A DNA stretch of 56,610 nucleotides from the NCBI GenBank assembly GCA_022447555.1, contig JAKVBF010000001.1:529655-586264 (forward strand), in the 5' to 3' direction. Shown piece by piece: positions 20,706-53,922 of this stretch. The position numbers and the translations under genes are program-made. Position 1 is the first letter of the stretch, and the number at the start of each line of letters is the position of its first letter. The DNA is from Mariniblastus sp. GTDB lineage: Bacteria > Planctomycetota > Planctomycetia > Pirellulales > Pirellulaceae. The notes under the pieces were generated by a model. The model had not been told where the DNA came from and made no database searches. It was given only the letters and a program-made list of their open reading frames with translations.

Positions 20706-21617
20706 TTACTTGGCGAGCGTCCAATCTAAAATCTTATTGTTGTTTTTTGCCAAGCTGTCGATCAGTTCGCTGACATTCACCTCTCCTTCAATCTCGAAGG
20801 AGCAGGTTTGATTGTCTAAATTCGTTTGGATGTTGGTTATTCCAGCAACGGCTTTCAAATCGCTTCGCACGGAAGCTTCACAGCCACTTCATGTCATGTT
20901 GGGAAGGTTGATCGCTACCAGCTGTCGCTGAGGGCCTTTGGTGTTGTTCGCCTGTTTTTTCTTGCGGTCACCACCATGTCCCGGCTGAGCCTCCAACGTG
21001 ACGGTTGGCTGCCCCACCAAAATCTCTAGATCCACGGCCGCTTCCACGCCGCTCAACATTTGGTCCATTCCGAACTTTGACCGATCCAATACGAATCGTG
21101 CCGTAAACAGTAAGCCCCCATTTTTAAATTCGTATTTGGCCGGAAAACTGATCGACTTGGTTTGGCCGTGTAGCGATAAAACACCCGTGACCAAACACTC
21201 GCCCGTGCCACCCATTTTGATGCTTGTGCTGACAAATCTAGAATGGGGGAATTTCTCCACTTCGAAAAAATCCACATTCTTAAGATGTTCAGTTAGCTTA
21301 GCGAATTCGGTCCAGACAGAGCCAACCTCAATCCCGACATCAATCGTGTTGATTTTTTTATTGTCTGGATCAACCTGCATAACGCCTTGAAAGGCCGCGA
21401 ACCCACCCAGCCTTGGCTTGGGGTCGTCACCAACATGCTTGCCCACAAAGTTGATACTTGAGTTGGAGGGGCTGATAAGTAGCACTGTTTGAAAAGGTGC
21501 GGGAGTCGCCAATGAAGGGGCCTCTTGGGCGGAGGTCCCGCTCATTGAAAACTGGAACAGAAGAGACGCTGCCAACAACGATTGGAGCATGTTTTGGTAA
21601 ATCATTTTTTGATGCAT
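20706..21617 (-). CDS. Probable selenoprotein: YceI domain + HMA domain with in-frame TGA (UxxC)
   Basis: 303 residues if the TGA at 20891-20889 is read as selenocysteine (residue 243); otherwise a 242-residue YceI protein. The ATG at 21617 has AGGA upstream. Residues 1-30 are a signal peptide; about 45-205 are a YceI lipocalin-like domain; about 210-233 are a charged linker; about 234-303 are an HMA domain. The frame before the TGA ends 'AINLPNMT' and after it continues 'SGCEASVRSDLKAVAGITNI' to a TAA at 20708-20706. HMA domains have MTCxxC here, so the TGA replaces exactly the first metal-binding cysteine. A hairpin with a G in its apical loop follows directly (see the SECIS entry). Extracytoplasmic metal or redox chemistry is likely. 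The alternative is a nonsense mutation or sequencing error. Confidence 0.75.
20850..20891 (-). promoter_or_regulatory. Candidate bacterial SECIS element with its UGA codon
   Basis: On the minus strand the TGA (20891-20889) is followed by AGT and an imperfect stem-loop: GGCT (20885-20882) with AGCC (20853-20850) as lower stem, unpaired GTGAA and GATTTGAA, then GCTTC (20876-20872) with GAAGC (20866-20862) closing a CGTGC loop. The loop starts 18 bases after the TGA and its second base is G, which agrees with what I recall of the bacterial SECIS consensus: apical loop 16-37 bases after UGA and G in the first two loop positions. Confidence 0.65.
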
Positions 21618-48831: not shown

Positions 48832-51800
48832 TTAACGATTGAATAAGAACGAAGGGCTGTTGATTAAAGCCCAGGCTAAATCTTGAGCGGCGGTAAGGCG
48901 CTGGTTCGCAAGTTGGGATGTGCTTTGGCCAAACTCTTGCTCCAGACGAGCCAGAGTGGCGTCCGCAGGGACGGGCCGGCTGACGCGAGTCAGCTTGTCT
49001 CTTAAGCGAGTGATCTCTGGGTCAATGGCCAGCGGTTTTTTAGCCTCGGCCAAGCTTGCCTGCAGGGCTTTTAAATGAGGGTCGCTCTTTGCGTACGCAG
49101 CCAGAAGCTGCTTCTTAATTGGTTCAGTCAGCTTGTCTTGAGGCTGGTCCAGCTGGGTCAGCAGTGCCTCGGGCAAACCGGCACCCAGCGTTCCCTCGCA
49201 TTGGCTGAGCGAGATGCGAAACCGACCCAACTGGTGTTGGTTGTCCCAGTTCTGGTGCAGCCGGAACCTTACCAGCGTCCCTTTTGGAAAACCGACCGGT
49301 TTGTCTATTTGGTAGGTGCCCCAGTTAACCTGCCCCGTGTTGCCGTACAAAGCCCAGCCGCCCTTATCGCCAGTTTTTCCATTGATGGTGTTTACGATCG
49401 GGAAACCGCTCTGTTCAAAGTTTGCAATGGCTGTTTTGAATGTTACGGGTGTCCACTGATCGGGCAGGTCAGGATTAGCAATTTCCATTTGGAATTCGGT
49501 TAAAACAAGATTCCCTTGGTCGGAGGTGCCGGGCCCTTTTCCCGGCAGGCTGTCATCGGTCAGCAGCTCTAGGCGAACGCCTGTAATACCCGTTAGCTTG
49601 GTTTTGCTTACTGCAGTGTACAAGTCTTTACTGTCGAATGGCGCGACGACAACGCTGTGGTCATCCTGAACCGTGACAGCAGCTGTTGACTGGGTGGTGA
49701 CTTGATCAAACAGGGTGGGCAGCCAGTTGACAGCCGTTTTCTGCCGTTGCTTCCAGCCTTCAAATCCCCCGACTGAGTCTTGGTGTTGTTTTAACTTGGC
49801 CTCGGCGATGGTAAGCCGCTGTCGGTGTTCTGCTTCGCGAGCCTCGAGTGTTGGGTCAATTTCCTGAATAGCCAGACTCAAAGCTTCTTGTGTCGACGTG
49901 ATCATTTGTTCTCGTTGTTTTTCCAAACCGGGGCGCAGCTGGTTCGCCACCTTGCGTCGCTCATTCAACTGGGCCAGCAACTGTTGGTGATCGGACGGGA
50001 TGTCGGCAAATGCAGTGACCGCGATTTTAATTTCCGCCGCGCTTGCCGCACGATTTAAAATCCGGTAGTAGAGCTCGGCAATCAATCGCTCATCATCTGG
50101 TTCGGAGGCAACCAGTTGGGCTAGTTGATTCTTTGGATCGCTCAGGGCTCTCGCGACGTCTGGCCCGCTAACCAGAGCCAGTACGGACCCTAACTGCAGG
50201 TCATCGCTGCGTTCGCATTCACAAGCGCTTTCTCTTGCGGGCCGCCCGAGTGTGGACAAGAAGCCGCTAGGCAGTTTGGCGCCCGAATCAGATAACGATG
50301 CTGCTCGGGTGCCAGGAGGAGCGCCGGGAATGGCTGATTGGCTGCCCGTGACAAAGTGAATGGAATCGAACAATACTTCGGCAGGTAGGCGACGAGGGAG
50401 AGCGTGGGAGTAGTTGAGAGAGTCGCCTTCATTGAAAGCGTTCGTTCGCACCGATAGCTGGTAAGTTCGGGATTTGCAGATCAATCGAATCACATGCTGC
50501 ATGTCGAAGTTTTGAGCCACAAATTCATTAGTCAGGTATTCCAGCACTTCCGGATTGGTTGGTGGATTACCCGCGCGAATATCATCGAGAGGCTCGATCA
50601 GCCCGACACCAAACAGGTAGCCCCACAAGCGATTTACATAGCTGGTCGCAAAATACGGATTGCTGGCCGACGTCGCCCAGGCAGCGAATGTTGCGCGACG
50701 TGATGCCGTCGGTTCAATATCGTAGTCGCAATCATAGGGGAATTGGGGTGCCGCGATCTGCCCGGTTCTTTCGTGTTTGAGGTCACCGCTGTCAGCATCG
50801 ACAACTTTTTCATAAAGCGGCTTGGCCGTATCAACAGCAGAACCACCGATGGTCTTGCCACTGCTGGCGGGATCAGCTTCTAGCTTAAATTGAGCGAAGA
50901 AAGCAGCCGTTTCGTAATACTGATCCTGAGTCCATCGCTCAAAAGGGTGGTCGTGACATTTATTGCAGTTAAATCGTGTGCCGAGGAATAGATGCGTCGT
51001 GTTCTCCATGGTGTCTTCGGGGGTGCGCAGGATCTTGTAGTACGCTGCGGGAGGGTTGTCTTTGTTGGAACCACTGGCGGTTAAGATCTGGCTAACGAAC
51101 TGGTTGTAGGGTGTATTGGCTTCGACATGCCCACGAATCCACTCTCGAAATGCCGTGGCCCCTTCGACCCCTAGAAATTTTCGGTTGACTTGTAGTAGGT
51201 CAGCCCATTTGTTGCTCCAGTATTCGACAAATTCAGGGCTGCCGACCAACAAGTCGATCAGTTCATCCCTTTTTTGCCGGCGGGGGCGGGTGTCAACGGT
51301 AAATTGCTTCACGACCTCGCTGGAAGGGGGCAAGCCGGTGAGATCGAGATGAACTCGCCGAACAAATTCTTCGTCCGAGCAGAGGTCTGCAGGCAAGATT
51401 TTCATTCGGTTCCACTTGGCTGCCACCATCTCATCGATAGGGCCATATGTCGGTGGCGGGACCCACGCGAAACCACTTCGGTCTCCCATTACCGTCAGCG
51501 TGGTGGCCGTGAATGCACCTTCAAAGCGAGCGAGAACAGGCGTTTCTCCCCGCCGCTGAGCAATCAGCTTGGCACCGTCAACGGAAGCGATTTCAATATC
51601 ACTGACTTCTAAAAAGGCCTCACGAGTGACGTCCCTCTGCGAACCATTCGTGTAGGTGGCCACCACTCGCATTTGTTGGCGATCCTCTGCATTGGCAAGA
51701 ATCGGGTCGCGCGGGAACACCTCTAGTGAAGCGACCCGCGGAACATCTAAATTCAGCTTCGCTCCGGCCGCAATCCAGTCGTGGATGATCTGATAGTATT

Positions 51801-53922
51801 TGTGGTTCATGGTCAGCAGTTGGCCCCCTTGATGCGGTGCCGATGCTGTAGGCTTGAGCAGCATTAGACTATCAGCGGGTGATGCCTGGTTCACGCGTCG
51901 CGCAGACAGGTCATCAGTGAATGCCCGGATATCGAAAATAGGATCGTAACCTCTTAGTGAAAGCTTAAAGCCCATCTTGCCGTCGGCGGACCCATGACAC
52001 GTTCCGGCGTTGCAGCCCAGGCGCGAAAGAACAGGGTTCACGTCTTGAATGAAATCGGGCGTCCACTCAGGATCCACGTCAATCTTGACGGGGACCACCG
52101 CCGATTGCCCTTGGTATTGAATTTTAATCTGCGAGTTGCGGTTTTGGGCTTTGGGCTGCAGTTGAACCAAGCCGGATTGGCTGACCGAAAAATCGGAGGG
52201 AGCCCTTTGGCTGCCGGGAGTTTGAAAAACAACACTGGAGGTAATGTCATGCCAGGCGCCATCTAGGGTCGAAGCCCTGACGATTAGTTGAGTGTACGCC
52301 GTTTTCGAATCGAGCACGATGCTCGGTGGCTGCACCTCCATCTCGACAATATTTTTAACAGGCAGCTTGGCTGGATTGTTTTGGTCGGCCACAGCGTACT
52401 GCCAGTTGCCGGTTGTCTCTGTGGACGTTTTCACACGCTTCACCGCAGTTTCCAGTGGCGCAAACGAGTCGGTTAATTGCCCCGTGCTGGTATCGAATAG
52501 GCGAACAAGCCCATCGCTTCCACCGGCGGCAAATTGGTTACCGGAGGGGTCAAACCGTAGAGCATAAACACCTGTGGGAACGTCTGTTGATCCCGCAAGC
52601 TTAATATTCCGCGTAACGTAATCTTCCCTTGTTTTGCGCTCCTCCGGTGTTCTCGAGGAGGCGGTTTTACCTAGAACGGACTTTAGCTCATCGGATAGCG
52701 TCGTGTCGAAGTCGTAGGCATACAGGGCAATGGCGCCAGACCCGTCTAGGCTGGTGCCGGCAGCAAACCACTTTCCGTCAGGTGATATATCGACTGCTTG
52801 AATCCTGCCTTTCATGGGCGGCATGCGTCGAATCATGTTGGCATCATCCCCAATGCGCCGTTGTGTTTGCCGAAACATCCGGTAAATTTTTGGGATTCCA
52901 TCAGAGCCACCAATTAAAATTTCGTCGCGCAACGGATGGCGCGCCACGGAAGAGATTCCACCCTTCAACACACCAGGTGTAATGGATGTAATGTTGTCAA
53001 TAAATCGTTCGGTAGCAAAATCGACCAGCTTGCAGGTCATATCCCGGCCGACCGAAACCAACTTGCTTCCATCCACCGACCAGGTTGTTTCTCGAACCCA
53101 GTCGTCATGTGCGCCCTGAAATAACACCTGAGCACCCGTTTTGGCGTCGATAACGCGAAGGTTGGTGTCGGTCGATCCAAAAGCAATTTTTAGTCCGTCC
53201 GGTGACCAGCTTATTCCGTAGACAGTGTCGTAGCCCACAGACTTGGATAGCTCGAGCTCTCCCGAGGCGACGTTCCAGACTTGAACTTCGCCGGCGAGCC
53301 CTGGGTTGCCACCCCCGACCGCCAACCGAGTTCCATCCGGGGAGAATCGAAGTGATTCGACCCGGGGTGAAATGCCGATTAAACGATGCTTAATCGCTTT
53401 CGTTTTCGTATCAACCAAAATCGCTTCGTGAAATCCAGTGGTAGCTAGGAGGCTGCCATCGGGGGAAAAATCGAGCGAAGTGACCACTGGTAGGCGGGTG
53501 TAAACCGGCGGTTGATTCTTGGAAAAATGGACGCTCTGAGCGGGCGAGTCATCGATGGCACCCTCTTTAATCCATCGCCGAATCAACTCGATCTCTTGGG
53601 TTTCTAGTGGCGGCCCGGCTTGGGGCATTTCAACTTCACCGTTGGTGTTGGGTGTGATCAAATCAATCAGATGGCTGGCGGCTGGATCACCAGTCACAAT
53701 TGCTGGATCGCCCGAGTCTCCGGCTTTCATTAACGCATCGAACTGAACCATTGTGTAGTTACCCAAATCACGGGCGGGTTGGTGGCAACCATAACACCTA
53801 GCCTGAAAGATCGGGCGAATTTGCTGTTGATAGCTGACGGCTGGCTCATCAGCCAGGATCAGATCCGTCGTTGTTAAAATGAGAACGACAATCATTGCGC
53901 GAAAGACAATGCGTGAATACAT
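48832..53922 (-). CDS. Giant PSD1-type protein: cytochrome c-like, WD40 propeller, DUF1549, DUF1553
   Basis: 1696 residues with a signal peptide. Residues about 30-120 are a planctomycete cytochrome c-like domain with the haem motif 'CYGCH'. A WD40 propeller follows (about 140-480): '[20 protein letters not shown]', '[18 protein letters not shown]' and '[20 protein letters not shown]'. Next come a second haem-like region, '[16 protein letters not shown]' (about 638), an Ig-like BIG2 segment (about 745-810), DUF1549 (about 835-1030, '[16 protein letters not shown]') and DUF1553 (about 1095-1330). A coiled-coil-like segment and a discoidin-like beta domain are inserted near 1380-1590, and the end '[18 protein letters not shown]' is characteristic. 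Likely periplasmic or surface-bound, paired with DUF1501. Confidence 0.93.

Follow-up and report, generated by a model that had tools for sequence, protein, structure and literature searches.

How is a TGA codon decoded that interrupts the gene of a YceI-domain protein at the very residue where a metal-binding HMA domain should carry its first cysteine? The question is raised by a gene on the minus strand of the window (the whole 56,610-nucleotide stretch of DNA that was analysed), in which all features given below lie on that strand. The frame (20706..21617) starts with ATG at 21617 and closes with TAA at 20708-20706, with 303 codons preceding the TAA and a single in-frame TGA, codon 243 (20889..20891), from which 60 codons run to the end of the frame. 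These are exactly the coordinates and counts of the earlier note, which had placed the TGA on the first Cys of an MTCxxC motif in a YceI-HMA fusion. The residues around it are LPNMT-(TGA)-SGCEASV, and if codon 243 is read as selenocysteine (Sec), the metal loop becomes M-T-U-S-G-C, with Sec in the first position of UxxC. By computational criteria the gene encodes a selenoprotein of 303 residues with Sec243, and it is very likely that selenium is actually incorporated.

The domain composition bears out that placement of the TGA. A YceI (lipocalin-like, PF04264) domain occupies residues 48-199 (21021..21476; Pfam E 4.3e-30, 105.5 bits against a cut-off of 23.7), and a Gly/Lys-rich linker at residues 200-235 (20913..21020), which carries GHGG..KKK in the nearer homologues, leads to an HMA domain (PF00403) at residues 236-290 (20748..20912) that spans codon 243 (40.2 bits against a cut-off of 24.8). 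The Pfam scores were obtained on the window protein with Cys put in for codon 243; the 60 residues after the TGA, taken alone, also exceed the HMA cut-off with 28.3 bits. Residues 1-30 (21528..21617) form a probable signal peptide, judged by eye from a hydrophobic stretch and a cleavage-like site between TSA and QE, and this signal-like N-terminus agrees with the earlier proposal of a secreted or periplasmic protein; the YceI-HMA protein is very likely exported. With standard gene calling the protein would stop at residue 242, with its HMA domain cut off. Elsewhere in the window Pfam identifies PSCyt1, PSCyt2, PSD1 and DUF1501 proteins; we take the PSCyt2, PSD1 and DUF1501 proteins to be planctomycete-type, and PSCyt1 is so named by Pfam. 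One such protein (48832-53922, minus strand), of 1696 amino acids, combines PSCyt1, PSCyt2 and PSD1 with WD40 repeats.

The AlphaFold2 input consisted of the window protein and 19 relatives that match the YceI part only (25 relatives had been picked for the alignment, and L057, L058, L063, L067, L077 and L091 were left out). The model contains a confident YceI barrel, with block means of pLDDT mostly 84-96, low pLDDT at linker residues 202-228, and a tail of strand-helix-strand-strand-helix with pLDDT block means of 56-74, in which residue 243 lies in the loop between the first strand and the first helix. Foldseek placed structures of YceI proteins, and of polyisoprenoid-binding proteins related to them, at ranks 1-15 (E 5.5e-12 to 1.9e-7), and the tail weakly matches CopA, MerP and CopZ domains (E 0.009-0.05, probability 1.00).

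Full-length YceI-HMA genes with one TGA were found in seven of 60 genomes (own included), all of the genus to which the own genome belongs. A profile built from these seven (A1) was run at E 1e-40 on 199 genomes from the family (own included) and gave eight full-length matches above 300 bits, each with one TGA and together covering three genera; in the remaining 27 matching genomes only the YceI part is covered. The full-length gene is thus present in 11 genomes of three genera (the own genome, G003, G010, G015, G018, G019, G025, G590, G681, G730 and G731), and the TGA precedes xGCxASV in all 11 YceI-HMA genes read. The comparison with homologues of the extended protein that the earlier note had called for therefore yields both the HMA extension and the same-codon TGA in ten of the ten other genes, and a full-length version with Cys was found in neither the 60-genome nor the 199-genome search. 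Two of the 27 YceI-only matches have a TGA inside them (one in G545, two in G697). A separate scan of contigs gave, among the best 80 of 400 loci, matches within query residues 1-249. Four same-genus YceI proteins (L030, L031, L034 and L035) carry, where the window gene has the HMA-Sec domain, a C-terminal tail that is EF-hand-like by eye (DKDGDGKLSGDEIP), and by the same inspection they may be read as YceI proteins with exchangeable metal-binding tails.

The sequence after the TGA evolves as coding sequence. Between the genes of G003 and G018, the 60 post-TGA codons differ 3, 0 and 18 times at codon positions 1, 2 and 3 (dN/dS 0.03), and among the members of the close trio (L027-L029) the post-TGA values of dN/dS are 0.03-0.06; against the window gene dN/dS ranges from 0.14 (G015) to 0.66 (G003), with dS near saturation. 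Since ten other genes share the TGA codon and coding constraint continues beyond it, the TGA is not a product of chance or an assembly slip. A reading in which the TGA is a normal stop, or an error of sequencing, and the HMA part a decayed remnant has a negligible probability in view of the ten full-length genes with a same-codon TGA and of the constraint just described; one remnant-like piece does occur, half an HMA domain that follows two stops in G003:C131. TGA does act as a true stop in this genome, since it closes nine of 33 long window ORFs (39 minus the YceI-HMA gene and five others excluded by hand, mostly overlapping) and the selB ORF as well. Assembly error, pseudogene and altered code were accordingly rejected on the shared TGA codon, the constraint past it and the TGA stops elsewhere.

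If the codon is decoded as Sec, a hairpin should lie just 3' of it. A SECIS-like hairpin, GCUUC-CGUGC-GAAGC (20862..20876; arms 20876-20872 and 20866-20862, loop 20871-20867), is present at nucleotides 16-30 counted from the U of the UGA, that is, 13-27 nucleotides after the UGA. Folded alone, it is unremarkable in the window gene (z -1.17 to +0.29); a stem of at least five pairs at any position occurs in 34% of synonymous versions of this gene, a test that had little power for single genes, and Rfam gave no match over its cut-offs. The comparison of genes is more informative. With the position fixed (5' arm ending at nucleotide 20, 3' arm starting at nucleotides 26-28, at least five pairs, G-U allowed), the hairpin is found in 31 of 32 genes and in 12 of the 13 that represent them at less than 80% identity, against maxima of 10/32 and 5/13 in 5000 synonymous-codon shuffles; when the test is slid elsewhere it reaches at most 4/13, at a neighbouring position. 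Pairs 2-5 switch type with pairing kept, pair 4 being CG, GC or UA. The loop has a G at nucleotide 22 in 13 of 13 representatives, which is no evidence by itself because this is also the first base of a conserved Val codon.

Because the fixed position had been picked after viewing the same 32 genes, the test was repeated on genes found later, and all ten of them have at least five pairs (shuffle maximum 5/10). L200 and L208 have the same hairpin by reading, and L215-L217 have 7, 5 and 5 pairs, which brings the total to 46 of 47 genes; the later genes are not independent events, as many share identical stem letters. The lone broken stem, with one mismatch inside, belongs to L150 (G004:C102), where the gene may be in early decay because Sec decoding was lost, or a contig may be missing. 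Support for the candidate SECIS element is strong across genes only and is not significant in the window gene alone, and the question whether a SECIS-type structure accompanies the UGA can be answered with a stem-loop just 3' of it that has compensatory changes and is conserved across genes.

The machinery for Sec insertion, whose presence in the genome the earlier note had proposed to check, is in place: the window's genome (97.5% complete) contains selA (569 bits), selB (358 bits), selD (273 bits) and one tRNA-Sec over the cut-off (68.6 bits) with anticodon TCA. The selD sequence (L020; G000:C3:79091-79999) lies at the end of a 733-aa frame, the first part of which resembles, by eye, an NADH-dehydrogenase-type oxidoreductase; the selD part probably has Cys rather than Sec, since CLGCGG is seen by eye near its start. 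Among the 60 genomes, selA is over the cut-off in 41, of which 14, the own genome among them, have the TGA family. Four of the 19 genomes without selA over the cut-off also carry this family (G021, G003, G018 and G004). G021 has a selA fragment at a contig end, and selB was searched in six of the 19: it is over the cut-off in G003, G018 and G021 and is absent over the cut-off from G004, G002 and G023. G002 and G023 carry no TGA gene. G004 (80% complete) gave no match over the cut-off for selA or for selB, yet has two TGA genes and is the contrary case; this could be accounted for if the genes were lost recently or if a contig is missing.

The same association is seen at the level of the order. 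In 13 of the order genomes that match the HMA-Sec profile described below, selB is over the cut-off in all 12 that have a TGA gene (the matches in G602 and G608 being partial). The sole genome of the 13 with no TGA gene, G633 (99% complete), gave no selB match at 1e-60, and its gene, L203, is a Cys counterpart that reads MVCGGCAMEV with a TGC codon, no stop and zero pairs in the hairpin stem. The TGA genes and L203 thus form a natural Sec/Cys pair that tracks selB.

These results bear on a further possibility, namely that the TGA is read not as Sec but by low-level read-through or by a suppressor or altered code, as Trp or Cys. The open frame past the TGA fits any decoding, but TGA terminates nine of the 33 long window ORFs, in those family members that were read it takes the place of the Cys ligand, and Sec is the only decoding that explains the hairpin together with the Sec machinery and the correlation with selB; we regard such decoding as highly improbable.

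The HMA-Sec domain is not confined to YceI proteins. The same HMA domain, with P-x-M-x-TGA in the members read, also occurs on short lipoprotein-like proteins of about 125-200 aa and on longer ones, of about 250-270 aa, that begin with a charged and helical-looking part. In nine loci of the latter kind (L042, L044, L048, L051, L052, L134, L136, L138 and L145) the fusion partner of HMA-Sec is a charged module of ~180 residues, helical in appearance, in which no Pfam family was found over the cut-off in the two tested (L042 and L145) and which recalls Spy/CpxP-like proteins by eye only. A profile of 15 HMA-Sec domains (A3), run on the 60 genomes (own included) at E 1e-4, matched 32 times in 18 genomes with scores of 91-118 bits, and 32 of these 32 matches have one TGA. 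The next-best match, at 48 bits, is a half-domain remnant in G003, and weaker matches have no stop, except L198 in G028 with two TGAs. The remnant (L163:1532-1669, plus strand, in G003:C131) stands directly after two stops that end another frame and looks like what is left of a second copy. The frame in L198 (1640-1825, minus strand) is HMA-like and reads MV-TGA-GNS-TGA-GK, a UxxxU; it is either a double-Sec variant or a decaying copy, and G028 has selA over the cut-off.

On 246 order genomes, A3 at 1e-9 matched 15 (own included), with 14 matches that have one TGA; the matches with no TGA are those of G633 at 88 bits and of G537 at 42 bits, the latter in a 788-aa frame. An exact and narrow pattern scan of the phylum matched three of 392 genomes, with the own genome matched at two places; the match in G373 is a real HMA-Sec gene, and that in G388 looks like chance. 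The second HMA-Sec gene of the own genome (L140, G000:C4:128043-138261; match at G000:C4:133037-133252, minus strand) has a lipoprotein-like N-terminus, the sequence LPNMT-TGA-GGCAASV and a perfect GCCUCG-GUC-CGAGGC hairpin. As far as these searches reach, the HMA-Sec branch is nearly Sec-only and new. Standard annotation would clip the short lipoprotein-like genes just before the metal site, and in these genomes a class of metal proteins would go unnoticed.

What might the protein do? During translation, SelB carrying Sec-tRNA(Sec) would bind the hairpin 13-27 nucleotides past the UGA, Sec would be placed at codon 243, and the ribosome would then complete the HMA domain. The product would be a YceI domain tethered through a flexible linker to an HMA domain with the metal loop MT-Sec-xxCys. 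The MxCxxC loops of HMA domains bind ions such as Cu(I), Hg(II) and Zn(II), and Sec has a lower pKa and a higher affinity for soft metals than Cys; for these two reasons we favour an exported soft-metal binder that is improved by Sec. Outside the cytoplasm, the selenolate-thiolate pair of UxxC most likely would hold a soft metal ion, e.g., Cu(I) or Hg(II), with a grip that would be tighter than that of CxxC and would persist at a lower pH. The YceI barrel may hold a lipid or lipid-like ligand, which is plausible because YceI structures include polyisoprenoid-binding proteins. The gene neighbourhood was compared by tblastn between 14 window ORFs and the 10.8-15 kb loci of six relatives, and the gene itself was the sole match; because no neighbourhood is common to the six relatives, the functional argument rests on the domains, with no operon argument. 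Judged from the domains, Sec243 probably serves as a metal ligand, and the reading as a whole, an exported YceI-HMA selenoprotein with a soft-metal-binding UxxC, is the one that we consider likely.

A serious rival accepts Sec insertion and holds that UxxC is mainly a redox centre, for selenenyl-sulfide exchange or for peroxide or metal reduction, to which the YceI domain, members of which bind polyisoprenoids in known structures, might present an oxidised isoprenoid or lipid. Excerpts of PMC13188914 regard uncharacterised selenoproteins as mostly likely redox proteins, many with UxxC-type motifs, and by eye an extra Cys follows UxxC in 11 of 15 aligned HMA-Sec domains. However, this Cys is missing from the other four, and the fold, by Pfam, the model and Foldseek, is that of HMA and not thioredoxin-like. 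A redox role is thus distinctly less probable than metal binding, but it has to be kept in mind.

Under the preferred metal-binding reading, the position of the UGA may itself have a meaning. In the absence of selenium, translation would end at residue 242 and leave the whole YceI domain with no metal tail; since the UGA follows a complete YceI domain and the linker, a cell short of selenium would still be able to produce a protein with YceI alone. We tentatively suggest, as speculation more than expectation, that the UGA is a selenium switch, with selenium-replete cells making YceI with a high-affinity Cu/Hg tail and selenium-poor cells making YceI alone, and that the nearly Sec-only HMA family, present in these planctomycete-type bacteria on at least three kinds of apparently exported N-terminal module, is a selenium-based periplasmic soft-metal buffer.

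The use of Sec in such a setting can be compared with known selenoproteins, the characterised ones having in their majority a thioredoxin-like fold (excerpts of PMC13188914). That Sec serves as the first HMA ligand almost throughout the family, on several unrelated carriers, raises the question whether the envelope makes use of selenium to bind metals. Selenoproteins have been reported from two planctomycetes (excerpts of PMC4807772). The May 2026 inventory PMC13188914 counts, by its own count, 119 families or subfamilies; its table, in the portion at hand, includes an ATPase with UxxC, a UxxU metal-binding protein and a MerT-type transporter, and lists neither an entry under the name YceI nor a small HMA family with UxxC. 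Among the open-licence papers listed in literature searches, no title or abstract start contains a report of a YceI-HMA selenoprotein fusion; the single paper retrieved for YceI together with selenocysteine deals with plant-pathogenic enterobacteria.

When NCBIfam (June 2026) was scored on the window protein, two matching models were named as selenoproteins, and the protein stays below the cut-off of both. The UxxU metal-binding (seleno)protein NF041115 (17.2 bits against 95) resembles the window protein in having an HMA-related domain with Sec in the metal motif, but it has two Sec in UxxU (table of PMC13188914) and no YceI domain, whereas the window protein has UxxC; PMC13188914 lists this type as a 'putative mercuric reductase' selenoprotein. 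NF045683, the MerT/CopZ fusion-like heavy metal transport selenoprotein (23.5 bits against 375), is likewise a fusion of a CopZ-like (HMA) domain with another module, but its partner, judged by name, is MerT in place of YceI. The cation-transporting ATPase E1-E2 selenoprotein (excerpts of PMC2398784 and PMC13188914) shares UxxC in a metal-transport protein, but it is a P-type ATPase, whereas the window protein is a YceI fusion that lacks the ATPase part. The N-terminal domain has its counterparts in YceI/polyisoprenoid-binding lipocalin-like proteins (PDB 1y0g, 1wub and 3hpe), whose chains of 164-191 residues match the YceI part only.

The closest in kind is the GOS MerP selenoprotein, a small HMA protein with Sec that may belong to the lipoprotein-like HMA-Sec branch. 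This precedent, which the earlier note had mentioned, is real: in the available part of PMC2398784 it occupies one table line, with 2 sequences, no motif given and apparently no Cys homologue. The window protein itself falls below the cut-off of the MerP model TIGR02052 (22.2 against 92.55). An HMA domain with Sec is therefore of a known broad kind, and its fusion to YceI is an architecture that is new within the reach of these searches.
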